Shown here: in pieces, positions 17,366 to 35,861 of the stretch | Position numbering within the stretch: position 1 is the first letter of the stretch | How the letters are laid out: the number at the start of each line of letters is the position of its first letter | Assembly (NCBI RefSeq): GCF_029278565.1 | Contig: NZ_CP119559.1 | Location: forward strand, 1,674,001-1,738,000 | Origin: Haloarcula halophila | Lineage (GTDB): Archaea > Halobacteriota > Halobacteria > Halobacteriales > Haloarculaceae | Length of the DNA: 64,000 bases | Reading direction: 5' to 3' | Position numbers and translations under genes: made by a program | Notes under the pieces: model-generated | What the model was told of the DNA's origin: nothing | Seen by the model: the letters and a program-made list of their open reading frames with translations, nothing else | Database searches by the model: none

Positions 17366-18184
17366 TCAGGACGTGTCGGCAACGTCGACGACCTCGTAAC
17401 TGAGGTTCTGGTCCCGAAGCGTGTCGGTGTGTTTCGACAGCGTATCCGTCGAAGCCAACAGCAGTATGTCCAGCCCCTTCGCGGCCGCCTCGCGAACAGC
17501 AGCGGCACTGCCGAACCGAATGTCGGGATCGAGACCGACTGTTTCGGCGGCGGCGACAGCCTCGACGCCACCCACCGCCAACAGGTCGTGGCCAGCGGCC
17601 AACTCCGCGATCCGGTCCGGGTCCACCGCCGAACTCCCGCCGTTTTGGACCGGTGGAATCGAGACGATCGTCACCGAACCAAGCTCGTAGTCGACCACTC
17701 CTTCGAAGTTCGTCACGCCGACGTCCTGGCCGGCCGCCGCGTCAGTCACCGCAACTGCGGTTGCGTCCCCGGTGTTGCCGGCCATCGCACGCAACACGCC
17801 GTCCCGCATCGTCAACGAGACGGTTTCGCCCTCTTCGATCGCCGTCGTCGCGATCGCCGTCTCGATCTCGACCTGGCCGATCACGTCCTCGGAGACGTGT
17901 TGGACGAACCCGCGTAGTTCGTCGGTCTGTGAGATCAGCCAGTCGACGCCCTCCTTCGTCACCTCGTATCGGCCACGGCCGTGCTTGTCGACGTACGACT
18001 GTTCGATCAGGTCCTGGAGGTAGTCGCTGACGGCCTGTGCGGTGATGCCGATGGCGTCCGCGATCTCCTGTTGGTTGACCGCGGGCTGTCGTTCCGCGAT
18101 CTGGACGAGGATCTGGTACCGCGTCGCGTTACGCTTGCTCTGGAGGACACCGAACTCGTCGGCATCGTCCGCGTTCGTCGGCAT
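17366..18184 (-). CDS. winged-helix regulator divergent from the cobalamin operon
   Basis: A 272-residue protein. Residues about 12-75 form a MarR-like winged helix (VNQQEIADAIGITAQAVSDY as the recognition region, then KHGRGRYEVTKEGVDWL as the wing). Residues about 100-270 are an alpha/beta domain without a motif I know, perhaps for ligand binding. It is divergent from cbiT, and both share the intergenic region with the candidate operator at 18290-18303. Control of corrin synthesis is therefore likely by position, but unproven. The effector could be cobalt or a corrinoid. Confidence 0.8.
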   Translation of the reverse strand: MPTNADDADEFGVLQSKRNATRYQILVQIAERQPAVNQQEIADAIGITAQAVSDYLQDLIEQSYVDKHGRGRYEVTKEGVDWLISQTDELRGFVQHVSEDVIGQVEIETAIATTAIEEGETVSLTMRDGVLRAMAGNTGDATAVAVTDAAAGQDVGVTNFEGVVDYELGSVTIVSIPPVQNGGSSAVDPDRIAELAAGHDLLAVGGVEAVAAAETVGLDPDIRFGSAAAVREAAAKGLDILLLASTDTLSKHTDTLRDQNLSYEVVDVADTS

Positions 18185-18278
18185 TGTCGGCTTTCTGCAC
18201 TGCGAACTAAAGTAATTTTGCCTTAGCTCGTCTGAGATTGGCGATCGGAGCGTTTCGTGGCGTATAGAACAACCCCAG

Positions 18279-18305
18279 TATATCTAAAACAACCAAAATT
18301 GTTTT
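18279..18305 (+). promoter_or_regulatory. cbiT promoter with candidate operator
   Basis: The TATA-like TATATCTAAA at 18279-18288 runs directly into AAAACAA-CCAAAA-TTGTTTT, a 7-base inverted repeat (18286-18292 with 18299-18305). The core CAACCAAAATTGT (18290-18302) recurs as CAACCATAGTTGT between chlID and cobN. A half site, AACAACC, is at 18268-18274. Placement over the expected transcription start suggests repression. Confidence 0.6.
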
Positions 18306-18331
18306 ACGCGCTACGACAGTTGTATTGGTCG

Positions 18332-18943
18332 ATGGCACACGTCTCGCTCCCACACGACGCGAAGGCCGGGCCGACCAAACCGGAGGTCAGGGCCGTCCTG
18401 TTGCAGAAACTGGCCCTCGGGCCGACAGATCACTTCGTGGAGGTCGGCTCCTGTACCGGCGCCGTCACGATCGAGGCGGCACGGCGCGCCGATCGGGTGA
18501 CAGCCCTCGAACGAAAGCCCGAACGGCTCGAAACCACCAGGCAGAACCTCGCTGCGAACGACGTCGACGGCGACGTTGACCTCCGACACGCCGAGGCGCC
18601 CGAAGGGCTCCCCGAGGACGCAGACACCCTGTTTCTCGGCGGCAGTCGGAACTACGAGGCGGTCCTCGACCACGCGGTCGAGGCCGGTATCGATCGCGTC
18701 GTCATGAACGTCTCCCGGCTGGAAGTCGCTGGGGCTGCGACCGAGGCGTTTCGCGACCGGGGACTGCTCGAAGCGGTCCTCCAGTTCCAGGTGAGTCACG
18801 GCTACGAACTCGCCGGAGCGACGAGTTTCGATTCGGAGAACCCGGTGTACATGCTTGTCGGTGGGACCGACACGGTCGCGACGGACGGCGGCGAAAAAGC
18901 GACCGGAACCGAACGCGAGGACGCCGACGGGAGCCAGCGATGA
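18332..18943 (+). CDS. cbiT: cobalt-precorrin-6B (C15) methyltransferase/decarboxylase
   Basis: A 203-residue SAM-dependent methyltransferase with a Rossmann motif, VEVGSCTGAVTIEAA, at about 36-50. It matches CbiT, which methylates C15 and removes the C12 acetate carboxyl in the anaerobic corrin pathway. The ATG at 18332 is chosen since MAHVSLPHDAKAGPTKPEVR is the normal CbiT start; the frame is open upstream through the promoter. It is the first gene of a nine- or ten-gene rightward operon and overlaps cbiL by four bases. Confidence 0.9.
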   Translation: MAHVSLPHDAKAGPTKPEVRAVLLQKLALGPTDHFVEVGSCTGAVTIEAARRADRVTALERKPERLETTRQNLAANDVDGDVDLRHAEAPEGLPEDADTLFLGGSRNYEAVLDHAVEAGIDRVVMNVSRLEVAGAATEAFRDRGLLEAVLQFQVSHGYELAGATSFDSENPVYMLVGGTDTVATDGGEKATGTEREDADGSQR

Positions 18944-23751: not shown

Positions 23752-24457
23752 CACGGACCGGCGGTCGACGACGATCGAACCCGTCGGGGACCTCCTGGCG
23801 TCGACCCCCGAGACGGCGTACTTCTGGGGCCGTGTCGCCGGTGACGGTGCCCTCTCCGAGAACTGTGTCACCGTCCGGACGGAAGACGAGACGGCCGCCG
23901 AGGCGCTGGCAGCCGTCGCCGGTGCCGACCGGACCGACCAGGCCCACCGGGTGGCCGCCCGGGAGTCCGCACACGACGCCTCGATCGTCCGGTTCGAGGA
24001 GGAGTTCGAGCTCCAAGTGTTCGGACCGCTGGCCGACCGGGCGAGCGCCGCCCTCGGGTTGCCGATCGACGGTCAGCCGGGCGGCTACCGGTTCGACACC
24101 TTCGCGGAGTACCGCCCGCAACTCCTCCGGGGACTGCTCGAAGCCTGTGGGACCGTCTGTTTCCGCGAGTCGTCCGGGTCGGTCGGGATCTCGTTCGTCC
24201 ACGACGAGGAAGGGTTGCTCCGGACGGTTCGGGCACTCCTGGACGCCGCCGAGCCGCATGTCCCGGCCGACAGCCTCTCGGAAGCGTCCTCCGGCGGACA
24301 CTGGTTCGGGCTGGCCGACGACGCGGACACGGACGCGTTCGCGCAGTGTGTGTACGCCGACAGCGACGAGTCGGGGCTGTACTCGGCCGACCGGCGGCAA
24401 AAGCTCCGCCGGAGCGTCGAACGCGCGACCGACGCCGAGGTGGGTGAGCTGTCGTGA
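23744..24457 (+). CDS. cobalamin-operon protein with two LAGLIDADG-like segments
   Basis: A 237-residue protein of unknown function, conserved in haloarchaeal corrin operons as far as I recall. Two segments, YFWGRVAGDGALSENCVTVR (about 28-47) and LLRGLLEACGTVCFRESSGS (about 125-144), resemble the paired LAGLIDADG helices with following strands in homing endonucleases and WhiA-type relatives. The first keeps the acidic GDG; the second has AC in place of the acidic residue, so nuclease activity seems lost. It is tightly packed between the ferredoxin and cbiX genes. It is a candidate for an unassigned step or for a structural role. Confidence 0.75.
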   Translation: MSDTDRRSTTIEPVGDLLASTPETAYFWGRVAGDGALSENCVTVRTEDETAAEALAAVAGADRTDQAHRVAARESAHDASIVRFEEEFELQVFGPLADRASAALGLPIDGQPGGYRFDTFAEYRPQLLRGLLEACGTVCFRESSGSVGISFVHDEEGLLRTVRALLDAAEPHVPADSLSEASSGGHWFGLADDADTDAFAQCVYADSDESGLYSADRRQKLRRSVERATDAEVGELS

Positions 24458-25677
24458 CCACCACCCAGTCCGCGCCGGCGAGTCTCGACGACGAGGCCGT
24501 CCTGCTGGTCGGCCACGGCTCCCGCCGCGAGAAATCCAACGAACAGGTCCGGACGCTGGCGGCCGACCTAGAGGAGCGGCTGGGTATCCCCGTCGACGCG
24601 GGCTTTCTCGAACTCGCGGAGCCGGCCATCGACGACGCCATCGCCGGCCTGGCCGGGGCCGTCTCGGCCGTGACGACCGTCCAGCTCTCGCTGTTTGCCG
24701 CCAGCCACGTCAAGAACGACGTGCCGTTGGCGGTCCAGCAGGCCCGCGAGACGCACGACGATCTCACCGTCCACAACGGTGCGCATCTCGGGGTCCACCC
24801 GGCGCTGGTGGACCTGCTCGACGACCGTGCGGCGGCCGTCGAGGCGGAACTGGGCGTCGACCGCGAGACCGACGACGTCGCGGTCGTCCTCTGTGCGCGC
24901 GGGTCGAGCGACCCGGACGCGAACAGCGACGCCCACAAGCTCGCCCGCCTGCTGTACGAGGGGCGTGCCTTCGACAGGGTCGAGACGGCCTTCATCGGCG
25001 TCACCGAACCGCTGCTTGACGAACGACTCCACACCGTCGCGAAAGACCGCCCGGACGCCGTGGTCGTCCTCCCGTACATGCTGGGCGACGGCGTCCTCAC
25101 CGGCCGTATCCGCGATGGTGCCGCCGAGTTCGACGAGGAGTACCCCTACGTCGAGGCGGGCGCCGGCGACCCGCTCGGGACCGACGGCCGGCTGCTGGAC
25201 GTGCTGGGCGACCGCTGGCAGGAGGCCCGGACCGACAGCGTCGACATGTCCTGTGACACCTGCAAGTACAAGGTCGAACTCGACGGTTACGAGGAGGACG
25301 TGGGTGGAGCCAAGGCGCTGCTGCGGGCGATGACACACCAGGAGACCCACGCGGACCGGGACGACGTCGACGACCAGCCCCACACCCACGACGCGCCGGA
25401 GTCCCACGTCGCCGTCTGTACGAACCAGACCTGCGCCACCGACGGCGCGCCGGCCGTCCTCGAACGGCTTCGACAGGCCGCCCGGGATTCGGAGGCGTGT
25501 GACGCCCGGATCACCCGATCGTCCTGTCTCGGCCGCTGTGGGGACGGCCCGATGGTCGCCGTCTACCCAGACGGCGTCTGGTACGGCGGCGTCGAGGAGA
25601 GCGACGCGGAACGGATCGTCTCGTCCCACCTCGATCGGGACCGCATCGTCTCGGACCTCGTCGATCAGACACTATGA
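24454..25677 (+). CDS. cbiX: two-domain CbiX cobaltochelatase fused to a [2Fe-2S] domain
   Basis: A 407-residue protein with a GTG start overlapping the previous stop. Residues 12-255 are two tandem CbiX halves: LLVGHGSRR with His21 and FAASHVKND with His85 in the first, VVLCARGSSDP in the second. A linker has Cys267/Cys270 (SCDTCKYK) and a His/Asp-rich patch (295-318), a likely metal store. Residues 318-405 are a thioredoxin-like [2Fe-2S] ferredoxin with Cys322, Cys327, Cys358 and Cys362. CbiX inserts cobalt into sirohydrochlorin; the role of the cluster is unclear. Confidence 0.9.
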   Translation: MTTTQSAPASLDDEAVLLVGHGSRREKSNEQVRTLAADLEERLGIPVDAGFLELAEPAIDDAIAGLAGAVSAVTTVQLSLFAASHVKNDVPLAVQQARETHDDLTVHNGAHLGVHPALVDLLDDRAAAVEAELGVDRETDDVAVVLCARGSSDPDANSDAHKLARLLYEGRAFDRVETAFIGVTEPLLDERLHTVAKDRPDAVVVLPYMLGDGVLTGRIRDGAAEFDEEYPYVEAGAGDPLGTDGRLLDVLGDRWQEARTDSVDMSCDTCKYKVELDGYEEDVGGAKALLRAMTHQETHADRDDVDDQPHTHDAPESHVAVCTNQTCATDGAPAVLERLRQAARDSEACDARITRSSCLGRCGDGPMVAVYPDGVWYGGVEESDAERIVSSHLDRDRIVSDLVDQTL

Positions 25678-26068: not shown

Positions 26069-26416
26069 TCACCGACTATCGTCGGACCTGCTCCCGAGGT
26101 GTGTCGCGTCGGCACCGAACTCCGCTTCCAGTAGCGCCGGCACGTCTCCGGGGACCACGTCGGAGTACCACCGGCCCCGCGGGTGGATCGCGACCGCGGT
26201 CCCCTCGGCGCTACAGAGACCGAGACAGCTCGTTTCGGCGACGTGGACCCGCGACCAGAAGACCCCACGCTCGCGGAGCCACGACTGGACCGCCTCGTAG
26301 ACTTCGTCACCGTGTGCCGCCCCACAGGCGGCGTGTTCCCCGTCTCTCGCGTTCGTACAGACCAGCACGTGGTCCGTGAAGCCGTTCTCGTTGATCGCCG
26401 CTGTGCGCTCGCGCAT
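26069..26416 (-). CDS. thioredoxin-like [2Fe-2S] ferredoxin
   Basis: A 115-residue protein. VLVCTNARDGEHAACG gives Cys20 and Cys31, and SCLGLC gives Cys64 and Cys68, the ligand pattern of the thioredoxin-like [2Fe-2S] family. GTAVAIHPRGRWYSDV matches the ending of that fold and the C-terminal domain of the neighbouring CbiX. It is the last gene of the leftward chlID-cbtB-cbtA unit, sharing one base with the cbtA stop (TGATG). Likely a redox partner in cobalt insertion or transport. Confidence 0.88.
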   Translation of the reverse strand: MRERTAAINENGFTDHVLVCTNARDGEHAACGAAHGDEVYEAVQSWLRERGVFWSRVHVAETSCLGLCSAEGTAVAIHPRGRWYSDVVPGDVPALLEAEFGADATHLGSRSDDSR

Positions 26417-27207
26417 CAGTCCGCGGCGGGTGGTCCGTCGGGCAGTTCCGTCCCGACATCCCCGACCGGCTGGTCGTCGGATCGACCACTGAGCCAGGCG
26501 TGGGTCCCGGCGAGGGTGAGCCAGAGCAACACCTGGCCGAAGACGATCAGCCCGGTCAGTCCCGTCGCGACCTCGGCGGGCACCGTGTTCGCGACGCCGT
26601 TTGTCGGCACGAGAGCGACCGGGACCGCGAGCAGAGAGTACGGTACCACTGCGACGACGGCGCTACGGGCTCGCGACCGTGTCGCCCGGAGTCGGTCGTA
26701 CGCGACGAACGCCGACAGACTGACCAGCGCAGTTGCGGCCATCATCCCGCCGTAGAGCAGGAGCCGGGTGTCCGTCGGCAGTGACTGTTCGACACCGGGC
26801 GGCTGTGGCGGCAGGACGAGCCACGGCCCGCCGGAGACGGTGAGAAAGCCCGCGGCAGCGAGGAGGACGCTCTTCGTGGCCCCGGTGCCCGGAAGCAGCG
26901 GTTCGAGGAAGTAGTACGCGACCCCGAAGACGACGACGCCCAGGAGGACGCCCCAGAGCACGCCCGACACCACGCTCACGGAGTTCGTCATCGCCATCGA
27001 GACGGCGCTGTCGTGGTGGCTACCCCCAGCGTGGCCCTCGGTTTCGGCTGCGTGCTCGTGCCCGTGTTCGCCGGCCTGGTCACCCCCGTGAGCCAGTTCG
27101 TCCGCGAAGGCGACGAGGGGGTTCGCGACCAGCGCCACGAGAAGGCCAAACACCAGTCCCGCGACGACGCCTGCTTTCACGCCTCGACGGAGATACGCGA
27201 AGAACAT
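26416..27207 (-). CDS. cbtA: cobalt transport membrane protein CbtA
   Basis: A 263-residue protein with about six membrane helices. A His-rich external loop after the first helix (about 40-65: GEHGHEHAAETEGHAGGSHH) is suited to metal binding. GGPWLVLPPQPPGVE near 128 matches the CbtA family, predicted cobalt transporters found with CbtB. In bacteria these genes are usually under B12 riboswitches; no such element is visible here. It lies two bases after cbtB. Confidence 0.9.
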   Translation of the reverse strand: MFFAYLRRGVKAGVVAGLVFGLLVALVANPLVAFADELAHGGDQAGEHGHEHAAETEGHAGGSHHDSAVSMAMTNSVSVVSGVLWGVLLGVVVFGVAYYFLEPLLPGTGATKSVLLAAAGFLTVSGGPWLVLPPQPPGVEQSLPTDTRLLLYGGMMAATALVSLSAFVAYDRLRATRSRARSAVVAVVPYSLLAVPVALVPTNGVANTVPAEVATGLTGLIVFGQVLLWLTLAGTHAWLSGRSDDQPVGDVGTELPDGPPAAD

Positions 27208-27209
27208 CC

Positions 27210-27398
27210 TCAGTGGCAGGTGACGCCCGCGGCGTGTCGGAAGTTGTGCAGCGAGTCGTGGACCATCGGGTCCTGGACGAAAAGCAGTGCGAACCCGAGC
27301 GCGACGACGAGTACTCCCCCGAGCGCCATCTGCATCGGCGTCAGTTCCCCGCGAGCCTGTGCGATTCGACCGTGAACGCTGTCGTTGGCAGTCGCCAT
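27210..27398 (-). CDS. cbtB: cobalt transport subunit CbtB
   Basis: A 62-residue protein with a single membrane helix (about 23-41) and a C-terminal His-rich end, VHDSLHNFRHAAGVTCH, with Cys61, a typical CbtB metal-binding tail. It works with CbtA. It starts 40 bases after the chlID stop, and that gap is AT-rich with a TATA-like ATTTACAA on the minus strand, so it may have its own promoter in addition to read-through. Confidence 0.9.
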   Translation of the reverse strand: MATANDSVHGRIAQARGELTPMQMALGGVLVVALGFALLFVQDPMVHDSLHNFRHAAGVTCH

Positions 27399-27438
27399 TC
27401 TAAACTACAGTTGAACAAAACCAAGCTAGATTGTAAAT

Positions 27439-29568
27439 CTACCGACCGAGCGAAAGCTCGCTTTCACGAGCGGTGCCGACGGCCGCGTCGATCCGTTCGG
27501 CCGACAGCGCCGACAGCGGGACGTGGTCGCCGTCGGTCTCCGCCGCGACGGTCTCGGTCAGGCCGGACCGGCCACCCTCGCCCGCGTCGACGACGACGAC
27601 GTGTGGGCCAGTCTCGCTCAACTGTCTCGCGGCTTCGCGGGTCTCGGCGACCGGACTCCCCGCCGCGACGTTGGCGCGACCGTCGGTGACTACCACCACG
27701 ACGCCGGCGTCCGGATCGGCACGGTCGAGGACGTCCGCGGCGGTCCGGAGGCCGGCGGGCAGCGGTGTCCGGTCCCCGGTCGGGATCTCCTTGAGGTGGC
27801 GAGCGGCGAGGCTGACGCTGTCGGTCGGCGGGAGCAACACGTCCGCCCCGTCGCCGGCGAAGGTGACGAACGCCACCTCGTCGCGCTGCTGGTACGCGTC
27901 TTTCAGCAGTTCGAGGACGGTCCCCTTCGCCGCCCGCATCGCGGGCCGCATCGACGCGCTGGCGTCCACGACGAACACAACCAGCGCCGAGGTGTCACCC
28001 CGACGGACGGACTGTCGGAGGTCCCGTGATTCGACCGTCGACGCGCCGCGGGCCGACGCCGCCCGGACCGAGGCCGCGGCGTCGACGTGCCGGTCCGACT
28101 CCGCCGGTCGACTCCGGACTCTGGCCCCGTCGGTGTCGGCGTGTGGCCGCGTCTCCGACCGGGACCCCCCGTTCGCCCGGCCGTCCTCGACCGCTTCGGG
28201 CGCAGAGAGGTCCGGTGCGCCCCCGGAACCGATGTCGGCCCGGGACTGTCCCGGGACCATGGGTGTCCCGTCGTCGTTGTCCTCCGTCTCGCCCTCGTCG
28301 TCCATCGTCGCTGGTTCGTCGTCGCCGGACTCGCCGTCGCCACCCTGTTCCGGGGACGGGGAGTCGCGCTCGTCGTTCTCACCGCCGTCGGACTGGTCGG
28401 ACTCTGGCGGCGGCGTCTCCGACTCACCGTCGTCCCCGGGATCGGCGTCGCCGTCCGTCGCTTCCTCGCCGTCGGCCGGCTCCTCGCCGTCGTCGTCGGA
28501 CTCGCTCTCACCGTCGCCGGTCGAATCGTCGAACCGGTCGTCAACGAGATCGTCCAAGTCCGGCGTCTCCTCGAACGGTCGGGAGCGGAGCCGATGGGGG
28601 AGCGCCAGTTCCGCCGCCTCTCGTACGTCCGGTTCGATGACCCTCGGGCGGTCGTCGAGCGCGGCGAGCGTCATCGCCGTCCGGGCCGTCGCGATGTCGC
28701 CCCGGTGTCCGTCGATCCCGGCGTCGCGACACAGTTCGGCGATCTCTCTGGTGAACTCGGCCGGAAGCTCGACGTCGGGGAGGCGCTCGCGGGCGCGTCG
28801 TAACTGTTCCTCGAACGCGTCGTCGTCCTCGCCGTCCTCCGCGGCGTCTCCCGAACCCCAGCCGTCCGATCGGCCGATAGCCTGGTCGACGATGCGGACC
28901 CGCTGGTCGAGGTCGTCACAGGCGGTGACCGTCGCCTGGAGCGCGAACCGGTCCCGAAGCTGTGGCCTGAGCTCTCCCTCCTCGGGGTTCATCGTCCCGA
29001 CGAGAGTGAACCGGGCCGGGTGGGTGACGCTGACGCCGTCGCGCTCGACCCTGTTGACCCCGCTCGCCGCCGCATCCAGCAGTACGTCGACGAGGTGGTC
29101 GTCGAGGAGGTTCACCTCGTCGACGTAGAGAATCCCGCGGTTCGCACGGGCCAACAGTCCGGGGTCGAACTCGGCCTGGCCGTCGAGTGCGTCGGCCACC
29201 GAGAGGGTGCCGACGACCCGTTCGCGGGTCGCACCGAGCGGGAGCGTCACCAGCGGGACCGACCGCTCGGTCGTCGGCGGATCGGCCCGCTCGCGACAGT
29301 CCTCACACTGTTGGTCGGGCCTATCCGGGGGACAGCCGTACGGACAGTCCGCGACGACGGTCTGGTCGGGAAGGAGGTCGGCCAGCGCCCGCACCGCCGT
29401 GGATTTGGCCGTCCCCTTCTCGCCCTGGACGAGCAGCCCGTTCAGTTCGTCGTTCGCGCCGACAGCCACCAACGCCCGCTTGAGTTCGGCCTGTCCGACG
29501 ATCTCCGCCAGCGAGAGCGACCCACCCCGGTCCTGCGAAGCTTTTTTGTCCCCAGCATAATCAACCAT
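27439..29568 (-). CDS. ChlID-type chelatase: AAA+ ATPase joined to a VWA domain
   Basis: A 709-residue protein. Residues about 18-360 are a BchI/ChlI-type AAA+ module with Walker A GEKGTAKS (49-56), YVDEVNLL as Walker B, and inserted CPYGCPP and QQCEDC cysteines near 74-90. Residues about 375-505 are an Asp/Glu/Ser/Pro-rich linker. Residues about 528-700 are a von Willebrand A domain with MIDAS DASAS at about 535. It pairs with CobN as the motor of cobalt (or magnesium) chelation. The start at 29568 is favoured, since TATA on the minus strand (29591-29599) is 27 bases away, giving a leaderless mRNA. Confidence 0.92.
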   Translation of the reverse strand: MVDYAGDKKASQDRGGSLSLAEIVGQAELKRALVAVGANDELNGLLVQGEKGTAKSTAVRALADLLPDQTVVADCPYGCPPDRPDQQCEDCRERADPPTTERSVPLVTLPLGATRERVVGTLSVADALDGQAEFDPGLLARANRGILYVDEVNLLDDHLVDVLLDAAASGVNRVERDGVSVTHPARFTLVGTMNPEEGELRPQLRDRFALQATVTACDDLDQRVRIVDQAIGRSDGWGSGDAAEDGEDDDAFEEQLRRARERLPDVELPAEFTREIAELCRDAGIDGHRGDIATARTAMTLAALDDRPRVIEPDVREAAELALPHRLRSRPFEETPDLDDLVDDRFDDSTGDGESESDDDGEEPADGEEATDGDADPGDDGESETPPPESDQSDGGENDERDSPSPEQGGDGESGDDEPATMDDEGETEDNDDGTPMVPGQSRADIGSGGAPDLSAPEAVEDGRANGGSRSETRPHADTDGARVRSRPAESDRHVDAAASVRAASARGASTVESRDLRQSVRRGDTSALVVFVVDASASMRPAMRAAKGTVLELLKDAYQQRDEVAFVTFAGDGADVLLPPTDSVSLAARHLKEIPTGDRTPLPAGLRTAADVLDRADPDAGVVVVVTDGRANVAAGSPVAETREAARQLSETGPHVVVVDAGEGGRSGLTETVAAETDGDHVPLSALSAERIDAAVGTARESELSLGR

Positions 29569-29599
29569 AGTTGTCTTAGCACAACGGAGATTTAATAAC
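29562..29599. promoter_or_regulatory. divergent chlID/cobN promoter with candidate operator
   Basis: CAACCATAGTTGT at 29562-29574 covers the chlID start codon and matches CAACCAAAATTGT before cbiT at 11 of 13 positions. It overlaps a second dyad, GTTGT-CTTAGC-ACAAC (29570-29585). On the minus strand GTTATTAAA (29599-29591) is the likely chlID TATA box; on the plus strand GCATAATC at 29555-29562 may serve cobN. A repressor bound here would block both directions. Confidence 0.6.
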
Positions 29600-29602
29600 G
29601 TT

Positions 29603-32600
29603 ATGCCAACAATCGGCCTATACACAGCGACCGAAAACGAGCTCGGCGCCGTCCAGCGGGCGGCACAACGGACGGACGCCGACCTGGTCGTTCGCTCGGA
29701 GAGCGACCTCGACGACCGGGCGGACGTCGACGCCTTCCTCGACGAACTCGACGACGCGACGGCGGTGATCTGCTGGCTCCACGGTGCCGAGGAGAGCATG
29801 CCGGGCTACGACCACGCCGTCGGTCGGCTGGCCGACGCCGGCGTCCCGCTGGTCGTCAAATCGACCGGTGACGCCTACGCACTCGAAGACACGTCGATCG
29901 CCGCCGAGGATCGCGATCGGGTGTACGAGTACTTAGAGAAGGGCGGAACCGGCAACGTCGCCAACTGCGTCCGTTTTCTCGTCGACGAATACGGCGACGA
30001 GTCCCGCGCGTACGACGACCCCGTATCGCTCCCGACCGAGGGGGTCTACCACCCCGATCACCCGGGAGCGTCCTACGAGGAACTGCGGGCGACGTTCGAT
30101 CCGGAGACGCCGACGGTGGCGATCTGGTTCTACGAGTCCCACTGGACACACGAGAACACACGGTACGTCGACGCGCAGGTCCGGGCCGTCGAGGCACAGG
30201 GTGCGGACGCGCTGCCGATCTTCTGTAACCCGGCGACCGACAGCGACGAGCAGTGGGACGCCGAGCGCGTGACCGACGAGTGGCTCCTCGAAGCGGGGGA
30301 GCCGGTCGTCGACGCCGTCCTCTCGTCGTTCATGTTCTCGCTCTCGATGGACGAGCGGGGGCGGGCAGCCGACGACGAGGGCGACGGCGCGGCCGACGTG
30401 TTCCTCGACCGCCTGGGCGTCCCCGTCGTCCAGACGGTGACGACGATGCGGTCCCGGTCCCGGTACGAGTCCAGTGACACCGGCGTCATGGGCTTCGAAC
30501 TCGCGCTGTCGGTCGCGCTCCCGGAGTTCGACGGCAACGTCGTCACCCACCCGATCAGCGGCAAGGAACGGATCGACGACGAGGCCGACATCGGTACCGC
30601 CCCGAAACAGCACTTCCCGATGGACGACCGGGTCGACCACGCCGCCCGCCTCGCGGTCAACTGGGCGCGGCTCCGACACACCCCGAACCGGGAGAAACAG
30701 GTCGCGGTGGTCCTGCACAACTACCCGCCCAGCGACGACGGCATCGGCACCGCCTTCGGACTCGACAGCCCCGAGAGCACCGTCAACCTCCTCGAAGAGC
30801 TCCGCGAGCGGGGGTACGACCTCGGGAACCGCACACCGGAGAGCGGCCAGGCCCTCGTCGAACGACTGACCGACCAGTTGACCCTCGACGACCGCTGGGT
30901 CGCCCCCGACGACGTCCGCGAGCGCAGCGTCGACGTCGTCCCGACCGAGCAGTACGGCGAGTGGTTCCAGACCCTGGACGAGCGGTTCCAGGCGAACGTC
31001 CGCGAGGAGTGGGGCTCGGTACCCGACCGCCCGTTCGCCATCCCCGGCGTCGAGTTCGGGAACGTCCTCGTCACCGTCCAGCCACCCCGTGGGTTCGGGA
31101 TGGACCCATCGAAGGTGTACCACGACTCGGACCTCCAGCCGCCCCACGACTACGTGGCCTTCTACGGCTGGCTCCGGAACACCTTCGAGGCCGACGCGGT
31201 CGTCCATCTGGGTACCCACGGGAGCCTGGAGTGGCTCCCCGGGAAGACGGTCGGACTCGACGGCGAGAGCGCCCCGGACCAACTGATCGACGACGTCCCG
31301 AACGTCTACCCCTACATCATCAACAACCCCGGCGAGGGGACACAGGCCAAGCGGCGCTCCTACGCCGCCATCGTCGACTACCTGACGCCCGTGATGTCCA
31401 ACGCCGGGACCTACGACGAGTTGGCCGAGCTGGAGGAGCTGGCCGACCAGTACCGCGAGGCGGGCATGGAGGACGCACGGACCGACGACGGCGACCACCT
31501 CGAAGCGCTGCTGCGCGAGACGATCGCGGAGTTGGACCTCGCGGTGGAGTTGGGGATCAGCGGCGAGATCGACGAGACGGTCGACGTCCGTGGCCCGGAG
31601 GCCGCCGGCACCACGCTGGCCGAGGGTTCGGTGTCCGGCGACGAACTCTCGATCGACGAACTCGTCGAACGGGTCCACGAGTATCTCACCGACGTGAAGA
31701 CGACCCAGATCAGGCTGGGGCTGCACACGATGGGCGAACCCCCCGAATCCGACCGCCTCGTCGAGTACCTCGTCGCGCTCACCCGGTTGGAGAACCCCGG
31801 CGGGCCGAGCCTCCGGGAGAGCGTCGCCGGCGTCCTCGGCGTCGACTACGAGCGGATGCTCGACGAACCGGGTGCCTACGACGAGGACCTGGGGATGACG
31901 TTCTCGGAGGCGGCCGACGAGGTCTACGAGACCAGCCTCGACCTCGTCGAGACGCTGGCCGGACACGGCTTCGACCTCCCGGCGTCCGAGGTGGACGCGG
32001 GGCCGGACGACGAACTGAACATGAACCTCCTCGTCGTGGACATCGACCCGATCGGGGACGCCCGCGCGAAGTCCGGTGCCCACGACGACCTCCGGAAGGC
32101 GCTGTCGTTCATCTGTTCGGAGGTCGCGCCACGTGTCCGTGGTGCGACCGACGAGATCCCGCGGACGGCCGAGGCGCTGGCCGGCGAGTACGTCCCGCCC
32201 GGCGGCAGCGGCGCACCCACCCGCGGCGGGGTCGATCTGCTCCCGACGGGGCGGAACTTCTACACGCTCGATCCGCGGAAGGTCCCGGCCAAGAGCGCCT
32301 GGCGCGTCGGCCGGGAGGTCGCCGACGGGATCGCCCAACGGCACGCCGACGAGCACGGCGAGTATCCCGAGGAGATCGGCGTCGTCGCCTGGGGGACCCC
32401 CACGGTTCGGACCCGCGGCGAGACGATCGCGCAGGTGCTCGCACTGATGGGCGTCGAACCCGAGTGGACCGACGCCGGCCGTGTCGACGACGTGACGCCG
32501 ATCCCCCTCGACGAACTGGATCGGCCCCGGATCGACGTCACCACGCGGGTGTCGGGGCTCTTTCGCGACGCCTTCCCGCAGGCAGCGGGCGTGATCCACG

Positions 32601-33481
32601 ACGCCGTCGACGCTGTCGTCGCCCTCGACGAACCCCACGAGATGAACTACGTGAAAAAGCACGTCGAGGAAGAGGCCGACCGGCTCGACGAGCAGGGGAT
32701 CGAGGACCCCGACGCCGCGGCGAAACACCGCGTGTTCACGACCCGGCCGGGCGGCTACGGCGCCGGCACGAACAAGGCTGTCGACGAGGGCAACTGGGAC
32801 GACCGCTCGGACCTCGCGGACGTCTACGTCCAGTGGGGCGGCTACGCGCTCGGGAGTCGCGGCGGCGTGACCGAGGCCCACGACGCCTTCGAGCGGCGGC
32901 TGGGCAGCGTCGACGCCACCGTCAAGATCGAAGACACCGCCGAACAGGACGAGTTCGACAGCTCCGACTGGTACGCCTTCCACGGCGGCTTCATCACCGC
33001 CGTCTCCGAGATCGCGGGCGAGGAACCGGCCTCCTACGTCGGCGACTCCAGCGACCCCGACAACGTCTCGGTCTACACCAACGAGGAGAAAGTCCGGAAG
33101 GCGATGCGGGCCCGCGTGCTCAACCCCGAGTGGCTCGACAGCATGGAGGACCACGACTACAAGGGGGCCGGCGACCTCTCGACGACGGTCGACGTGGTGC
33201 TGGGCTGGGACGCGACCACCGGCGTCGTCAGCGATACCCTCTGGGCGGATCTCGCCGGGAAGTACGCCTTCGACGAGGACCGCCAGGAGTGGCTGCGGGA
33301 CGTGAACCCGTGGGCCTTAGAGAGCATCACCGACACGCTGCTGGAGGCCATCGACCGCGGTCTTTGGGACGCCGACGAGGAGACCGCCGACCGGCTCCGG
33401 GACCTCAACCTCCGGGTCGACGGCGACCTCGAAGCCCGTGCCGGGAGCGACCGGCCGGAGGTGACGAGCGATGACGACTGA
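29603..33481 (+). CDS. cobN: cobaltochelatase large subunit
   Basis: A 1292-residue protein matching the CobN/BchH family over its full usual length. Visible blocks include VICWLHGAEESMPG near the N-terminus, VVQTVTTMRSRSRYESSDTG, VHLGTHGSLEWLPGKTVGL, and ARVLNPEWLDSMEDHDYKGA near the end. CobN binds the corrin or porphyrin substrate and inserts Co(II) using ATP hydrolysis by the CobS/T or ChlI/D partners. The ChlID protein encoded divergently is the obvious partner. Cbi-type ring enzymes beside an aerobic-type chelatase is a known haloarchaeal oddity. Its end overlaps cbiC by 11 bases. Confidence 0.95.
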   Translation: MPTIGLYTATENELGAVQRAAQRTDADLVVRSESDLDDRADVDAFLDELDDATAVICWLHGAEESMPGYDHAVGRLADAGVPLVVKSTGDAYALEDTSIAAEDRDRVYEYLEKGGTGNVANCVRFLVDEYGDESRAYDDPVSLPTEGVYHPDHPGASYEELRATFDPETPTVAIWFYESHWTHENTRYVDAQVRAVEAQGADALPIFCNPATDSDEQWDAERVTDEWLLEAGEPVVDAVLSSFMFSLSMDERGRAADDEGDGAADVFLDRLGVPVVQTVTTMRSRSRYESSDTGVMGFELALSVALPEFDGNVVTHPISGKERIDDEADIGTAPKQHFPMDDRVDHAARLAVNWARLRHTPNREKQVAVVLHNYPPSDDGIGTAFGLDSPESTVNLLEELRERGYDLGNRTPESGQALVERLTDQLTLDDRWVAPDDVRERSVDVVPTEQYGEWFQTLDERFQANVREEWGSVPDRPFAIPGVEFGNVLVTVQPPRGFGMDPSKVYHDSDLQPPHDYVAFYGWLRNTFEADAVVHLGTHGSLEWLPGKTVGLDGESAPDQLIDDVPNVYPYIINNPGEGTQAKRRSYAAIVDYLTPVMSNAGTYDELAELEELADQYREAGMEDARTDDGDHLEALLRETIAELDLAVELGISGEIDETVDVRGPEAAGTTLAEGSVSGDELSIDELVERVHEYLTDVKTTQIRLGLHTMGEPPESDRLVEYLVALTRLENPGGPSLRESVAGVLGVDYERMLDEPGAYDEDLGMTFSEAADEVYETSLDLVETLAGHGFDLPASEVDAGPDDELNMNLLVVDIDPIGDARAKSGAHDDLRKALSFICSEVAPRVRGATDEIPRTAEALAGEYVPPGGSGAPTRGGVDLLPTGRNFYTLDPRKVPAKSAWRVGREVADGIAQRHADEHGEYPEEIGVVAWGTPTVRTRGETIAQVLALMGVEPEWTDAGRVDDVTPIPLDELDRPRIDVTTRVSGLFRDAFPQAAGVIHDAVDAVVALDEPHEMNYVKKHVEEEADRLDEQGIEDPDAAAKHRVFTTRPGGYGAGTNKAVDEGNWDDRSDLADVYVQWGGYALGSRGGVTEAHDAFERRLGSVDATVKIEDTAEQDEFDSSDWYAFHGGFITAVSEIAGEEPASYVGDSSDPDNVSVYTNEEKVRKAMRARVLNPEWLDSMEDHDYKGAGDLSTTVDVVLGWDATTGVVSDTLWADLAGKYAFDEDRQEWLRDVNPWALESITDTLLEAIDRGLWDADEETADRLRDLNLRVDGDLEARAGSDRPEVTSDDD

Positions 33482-35024: not shown

Positions 35025-35037
35025 CAAGCCGAATTGG
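35025..35037. promoter_or_regulatory. weak copy of the cobalamin box before the second cbiX
   Basis: CAAGCCGAATTGG matches the cbiT box at 9 of 13 positions, keeping the CAA...AATTG arms. It sits 36 bases before the ATG at 35073. The match alone is not significant; it is listed because of the cluster context. Confidence 0.3.
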
Positions 35038-35072
35038 GATAACTAAAATAAGATTTACTGGCCCGACGATCC

Positions 35073-35861
35073 ATGACAACCGAATCCATCCTGCTCATCA
35101 GCCGTGCCACGAGAAACGCCCACGAAGTGCTCGAGACACACGCCGACCGCCTCGCCCGGCGGACCGGCGTCGACGACGTCGACGTCGCGACCTACGATTC
35201 CGAGCCGATCCGCGAACTCACGCCCCAGTTCGAGCGGCTCACTGCCGAGACGGTGTACGCCGTCCCGATGTGTGCCGCCCACGGCCACGACACGACGACC
35301 GGTATCCCCGCCGCACTGTCGGCGCTGCCCGGCGAAGTCCACTACTGTGAACCCCTGGGCCGGAGTCCAGCAGTCACCGAGGTGATCGAAGACCGCGGCA
35401 CACAGCTGGTCCCGGCCGCGGACGACGTCTCGCTCGTTCTCGTCGGCTTCGGCAGTAGCTCGAAACCGTACCATCGACAGACGACCGACTACCACGCCAC
35501 ACGGCTGCGCGAACACTCGGGCTACGGCGAAGTCCTGACCTGCTATCTCCTCCAGAACCCGACGGTCGAGTGTGTCCGGTACAACACCACGACCGACCGG
35601 GCGATCGCCGTTCCACTGTTCCTGACGCGGACCGAGGCCACCGAACAGGAGATCCCCGCCAAACTCGAACTCGACCGGGGTGGTATCGAGTACGCCGATC
35701 CGCTGGGGGCACACCCCCGGATCACCGACGCCGTCCACGCGGAGGTCGAGAAACAGCGCGCGCTCGCTGACGGGGATCGCTCAGCCGAGCGCTCCTTCGA
35801 GGCACAGCTAACCCGGACACAGCGGCGAGTCGCCACCGACGGCGACGGCGGCGAGCGGTAG
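35073..35861 (+). CDS. cbiX: second CbiX-type sirohydrochlorin chelatase
   Basis: A 262-residue protein with two CbiX-like halves: MTTESILLISRATRNAHEVL with VPMCAAHGHDTTTG in the first, and LVLVGFGSSSKPYHRQTT with VPLFLTRTEATEQEIP in the second. It lacks the [2Fe-2S] domain of the other copy. Its N-terminal motif reads ISRATRN rather than GHGSR, so metal preference or the active half may differ. It has its own promoter region, 130 bases after cbiE. It may be a cobalt chelatase or a related small-molecule chelatase. Confidence 0.8.
   Translation: MTTESILLISRATRNAHEVLETHADRLARRTGVDDVDVATYDSEPIRELTPQFERLTAETVYAVPMCAAHGHDTTTGIPAALSALPGEVHYCEPLGRSPAVTEVIEDRGTQLVPAADDVSLVLVGFGSSSKPYHRQTTDYHATRLREHSGYGEVLTCYLLQNPTVECVRYNTTTDRAIAVPLFLTRTEATEQEIPAKLELDRGGIEYADPLGAHPRITDAVHAEVEKQRALADGDRSAERSFEAQLTRTQRRVATDGDGGER

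Follow-up and report, generated by a model that had tools for sequence, protein, structure and literature searches.

Background

Bacterial B12 riboswitches control corrin synthesis, the uptake of cobalt and B12, and the B12-independent ribonucleotide reductase. For some archaea, a DNA signal named the CBL-box was reportedly predicted upstream of B12 genes in a comparative study of 2003, its regulator being hypothetical, and to our knowledge archaeal B12 control has so far lacked an identified regulator. In Halobacterium salinarum, the cob/cbi genes are controlled by TrmB, and a second, TrmB-dependent activator was inferred from expression (PMC3794607).

The locus described here was analysed within a stretch of 64,000 nucleotides of the Haloarcula halophila genome (the window), and compared with these systems. 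Its regulon resembles those of bacterial cobalamin riboswitches (Rfam cobalamin element) in target set, but the haloarchaeal system consists of a DNA operator near probable leaderless starts; riboswitch control was rejected for the window, in which covariance models yielded no cobalamin riboswitch match and only tRNAs at the gathering threshold. As with the CBL-box, the operator is a predicted DNA signal at archaeal B12 genes; the two signals may be related, or identical in whole or in part, and what is added here is a candidate protein, together with the two-dyad layout and a list of targets across the class. The TrmB system shares with the proposed one a protein-based control of the same cob/cbi genes; a TrmB site was rejected as the operator, the motif TACT-N7-8-GAGTA being absent from the operator promoters and matched once in the window, at 2161-2177. 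MarR/IclR-like one-component regulators have the N-terminal winged helix in common with the candidate protein, whose C-terminal DUF7839 domain, in contrast, is without a characterised relative. A literature search found neither the operator nor a function of DUF7839 described.

Operator architecture

The intergenic region between cbiT and the divergent candidate regulator contains the following features, with mismatches counted against the 14 fixed bases of the operator:

17366-18184, minus strand: candidate regulator, type A; MarR-like winged helix and DUF7839 (PF25211), divergent from cbiT
18209-18240, minus strand: operator in the regulator's own promoter, CAATCTCAGACG-AGC-TA-AGG-CAAAATTACTTT, 3 mismatches
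18270-18301, plus strand: operator at cbiT, CAACCCCAGTAT-ATC-TA-AAA-CAACCAAAATTG, 2 mismatches; contains the box at 18290-18302
18302-18306, plus strand: TATA-like TTTTA, about 28 bp 5' of the cbiT ATG, a probable leaderless promoter
18319-18323, plus strand: third half-site GTTGT, about 20 bp 3' of the box, kept as TT(G) in many genomes
18332-18943, plus strand: cbiT-like methyltransferase gene, heading the cbi operon

The starting point was a box, CAACCAAAATTGT, at 18290-18302, which lies within an exact dyad formed by AAAACAA (18286-18292) and TTGTTTT (18299-18305). Allowing at most one mismatch, the box occurs in only two places of the whole 4.04 Mb genome, 18290-18302 and 29562-29574. With up to three mismatches the window shows no enrichment of the 13-mer alone (12 matches, 7.6 expected), and a longer, 32-bp form is therefore needed. 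This form has the consensus CAA-N6-TTG-N3-TA-N3-CAA-N6-TTG and is composed of two CAA-N6-TTG dyads of 12 bp each, with a centre-to-centre distance of 20 bp, or about two helical turns, and TA in the middle, the box being half of the operator. Five matches with at most three mismatches were obtained in the window, with 0.09 expected, and five were reached in none of 100 shuffles. Without exception, they lie at B12/cobalt promoters, namely those of the regulator, cbiT, cbtBA, chlID/cobN and cbiX2. The features of the last three loci are:

26416-27207, minus strand: cbtA, cobalt transporter subunit (PF09490)
27210-27398, minus strand: cbtB, cobalt transporter subunit (PF09489)
27402-27433: operator directly 5' of cbtB, AAACTACAGTTG-AAC-AA-AAC-CAAGCTAGATTG, 2 mismatches
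27439-29568, minus strand: chlID, TIGR02442-like cobaltochelatase subunit, scoring below the TIGR02442 cutoff
29562-29593: operator between chlID and cobN, CAACCATAGTTG-TCT-TA-GCA-CAACGGAGATTT, 1 mismatch
29603-33481, plus strand: cobN
35025-35056: operator 5' of the second cbiX gene, CAAGCCGAATTG-GGA-TA-ACT-AAAATAAGATTT, 2 mismatches
35073-35861, plus strand: second CbiX-domain gene (cbiX2)

The shared box and its exact dyad (18286-18305) had already been noted in the preliminary description and were recovered at both places. The second copy, CAACCATAGTTGT, carries the two changes reported for it and lies 11.3 kb from the first; the details differ in that the chlID start codon is inside the box, which begins 41 bp 5' of the cobN ATG. 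Placement of the cbiT box over the transcription start was dropped. It spans -42 to -30 relative to the start codon, and because of this spacing and the TATA-like TTTTA it probably lies over BRE/TATA instead.

The chlID start codon (CAT, 29566-29568) falls inside the operator, so that the chlID ATG and the dyad have bases in common. In addition to the plain CbiX at 35073-35861, the window encodes a second cobalt/iron chelatase, at 24454-25677, in which a 2Fe-2S thioredoxin-like ferredoxin domain is joined to CbiX.

Over the whole Haloarcula genome, six places match the operator with at most two mismatches, and five of the six are B12/cobalt loci; the two outside the window are the btuF/btuC intergenic region and one place on contig 3 with no assigned target. 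A GAACCATAGTTGT site that recurs in Haloarcula genomes, flanked by the gene of an ABC transporter ATPase and by an unrelated one, is without operator architecture and was set aside.

Conservation across haloarchaea

For the class-wide comparison, 155 haloarchaeal genomes were scanned with a 12-base operator core, which was present in 137 of them (18 without a match), as compared to 8 for a reversed control pattern. The preliminary description had made its proposal dependent on conservation of the box before cbiT and cobN orthologues, and the comparison favours the proposal. All 61 cbiT promoters compared (about 48 effective sequences) contain the box, which in cbiT-bearing genomes lies about 42 bp 5' of the cbiT ATG. 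In their alignment CAA, the C at position 4 and ATTGTTTT are kept at 96-100%, and AA, TT and TA of the second unit 20 bp upstream at 94-100%; in many of the 61, a third TTG follows at a distance of about 20 bp on the downstream side. Conservation at cobN (37 loci) comes with variation: the box lies 39-42 bp 5' of the cobN start in most, and in certain lineages, in which box and chlID start codon have ceased to overlap, its left half is lost or degraded. The operator, its conservation and its targets can be read directly from the genomes, as can the dyad in the promoter of the regulator itself, and we regard the operator and the existence of a B12 regulon as near certain.

DUF7839 protein as candidate reader

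The product of 17366-18184 matches PF25211 over residues 165-265 with 134.1 bits (cutoff 27), and its N-terminal winged helix matches MarR_2 with 32.8 bits (cutoff 27). The AlphaFold model (pLDDT 82, pTM 0.47) is ordered as winged helix, long helix, beta domain and alpha/beta domain, and a fold search of the PDB returned MarR and IclR folds, matched mainly over the winged helix. DUF7839 is encoded in all 155 haloarchaeal genomes and in 199 of 247 genomes of the phylum. In a tree, the haloarchaeal copies separate into two types, A, which includes the protein of the window, and B.

Across many families type A accompanies cbiT, and occasionally nrdAB; in one genome (G048) it lies 3' of nrdB. It adjoins cbiT at 16 of 60 cob loci, while in a named set it is divergent from cbiT at 41 of 80 loci, with the operator present in 39 of these 41. 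Away from cob, 25 of 26 type A genes have CAA-N6-TTG (at most one mismatch) in their own promoter, about 36 bp before the start, and 70 of 79 type A promoters have the dyad in the named set, some of whose members also belong to the first sample. Type B promoters have the dyad in 1 of 26 cases, against a background of 5%, and contain an unrelated TTTTTACC element. Since the dyad of type A promoters sits at the TATA position, it may be conserved in part as a core promoter element. That the box is nothing but a strong core promoter, BRE plus TATA, is nonetheless highly improbable: such an element would be expected at the position observed, -42 to -26 relative to probable leaderless starts, but in the window the 32-bp two-dyad pattern is restricted to B12/cobalt promoters, the pattern occurs at other start-codon distances and is common to several families, and type B promoters make use of their own element.

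Most cob-containing genomes have type B only, and type B is never at a cob locus. Type A, type B and the homologues of the methanogen side have the recognition helix QAVS(E/D)Y in common, and in genomes without type A the operator could therefore be read by type B; with neither an own-promoter dyad nor a position at cob, its link to the operator rests on this helix and on its universality. The type B locus (L195-L214) is ancient and conserved, with aIF2-alpha, PAC2-like and SbcD-like phosphoesterase genes, and type B may have other targets.

From this distribution we consider a DUF7839 protein the likely reader of the operator. In the alternative, the operator would be a genuine B12 operator read by another, unlinked transcription factor, and the DUF7839 gene a member of the regulon or a chance neighbour. 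This would account for the 44 cob loci at which the box is kept without an adjoining DUF7839 gene, for the type B promoters without dyad and for the persistence of DUF7839 in genomes without cbi genes, and an effect of TrmB on cob/cbi is on record for Halobacterium (PMC3794607). Yet no other HTH family recurs near cbiT across the 60 cob loci, the single TrmB motif of the window, at 2161, is far from the B12 promoters, type A accompanies cbiT and sometimes nrdAB in many families, and btu operators are kept in cob-less genomes, where a retained reader is to be expected. We therefore judge an unlinked reader rather unlikely, and prefer DUF7839. The candidacy of the divergent winged-helix regulator in the preliminary description is supported and extended to the whole class, although its gene adjoins only 16 of the 60 cob loci, at all of which the box is found. 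The accompanying ideas of a shared cobalamin operator and of protein-based control in place of a riboswitch are likewise supported, with no riboswitch match in the window. In Halobacterium salinarum DSM 3754, a type A gene is divergent from cbiT with the operator in between, which makes DUF7839 a candidate for the missing factor of that organism.

Proposed mode of action

In the model that we think fairly probable, DUF7839 dimers on the two-dyad operator would repress the B12 regulon when corrinoid is plentiful. One winged-helix dimer would occupy each dyad and the bound protein would cover the BRE/TATA region; repression would prevail at abundant corrinoid, probably adenosylcobalamin, and scarcity of B12 would switch on synthesis, import and the B12-independent reductase. 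The regulon would comprise corrin synthesis, cobalt and B12 uptake and the regulator itself, and in other haloarchaea also ribonucleotide reductase genes. Binding by DUF7839, repression and corrinoid as the ligand are inferred. Repression would suit the geometry of the sites, because at cbiT the downstream dyad lies over the probable BRE/TATA region, cbtB directly adjoins an operator, and the start of chlID falls within one.

The sign could also be positive, given the second activator inferred in the Halobacterium study (PMC3794607). The regulator would then recruit TFB/TBP from the upstream dyad, as do halophile regulators whose sites immediately precede BRE; the second, downstream dyad, at BRE/TATA distance from the ATG, would partly be BRE/TATA itself. 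We hold such an activator to be unlikely, as both units follow one consensus at 20-bp spacing within a near-palindromic site, the operator serves divergent pairs in both directions, and its distance to the start codon varies from about 4 bp before cbtB to about 100 bp before nrdA in one genome (L223).

DUF7839 proteins might even be the long-missing B12 sensor-repressors of the Halobacteriota, and perhaps of other archaea: a new ligand-binding domain would read corrinoid status, and one conserved two-dyad operator would govern B12 synthesis and import as well as whether a B12-dependent or a B12-independent ribonucleotide reductase is used; we advance this wider proposal tentatively, at somewhat less than even chances. 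With DUF7839 as reader, protein-based B12 control would extend to nearly all salt-loving archaea, and B12 status would be tied to the choice of ribonucleotide reductase in archaea. A candidate protein, a defined operator and a target list make B12 control directly testable in tractable halophiles, and provide hints to the function of an uncharacterised family present in most of the phylum.

Regulon content and signal

Operator sites sampled from other haloarchaea were used to compile the regulon. They lie 5' of cbiM (L119, L134, L170, L172 and L121; L121 assigned by sequence, PF01891 tested on L119), between btuF and btuC in eight genomes (L215-L222; L219 and L221 assigned by operator sequence), some of them without cbiT, and 5' of class I nrdA (L223 and L231 by NCBIfam; L227, L229, L278 and L279 by sequence). 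The nrdA site of L223 adjoins a cobT-like gene. Further sampled targets are cbtB/cbtBA, cbiX2, cobA-like genes, cobN, NikA-like and BtuF-like (Peripla_BP_2) binding proteins, and an internal cbiH-like gene. The btuFCD operator is retained in cob-less genomes. One operator is thus common to genes of corrin synthesis, cobalt uptake and B12 uptake, and in other haloarchaea includes the B12-independent reductase, class I nrdA; no class I ribonucleotide reductase operator site was found in the window's own genome.

Because this target set is like that of bacterial B12 riboswitches, corrinoid is favoured over cobalt alone as the signal. A response to cobalt would fit cbtBA, cbiM, the NikA-like binding proteins and the cobaltochelatase genes, but corrinoid status fits better with btuFCD, cobT, nrdA, nrdJ and nrdR as targets and with the btu site kept in cob-less genomes, so that we consider cobalt as the signal a distinctly unlikely reading and retain corrinoid.

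The operator also occurs 5' of nrdR (L228, L255) and of class II nrdJ (L247), the latter gene containing an intein; through these sites, ribonucleotide reductase may be influenced by B12 status on several levels. At eight operator-core sites (L230, L232, L234, L241, L248, L254, L256 and L280) no B12 gene was evident; two of these, L232 and L241, share the sequence on the downstream side and may point to a target not yet recognised.

Outside the class, in a phylum-wide scan in which AT-rich genomes yield background matches, the operator was found 5' of btuF, cbiS/cbiZ-like, cobB and cobT genes and near thiC in genomes of one family (f25), which also encode DUF7839 with the same QAVSEY helix, and 5' of cbiM in one genome of another (f21). 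ThiC paralogues can make B12 lower ligands. At one f25 locus (L269), operator sites are located on both sides of a thiC-like gene, which scores as ThiC.
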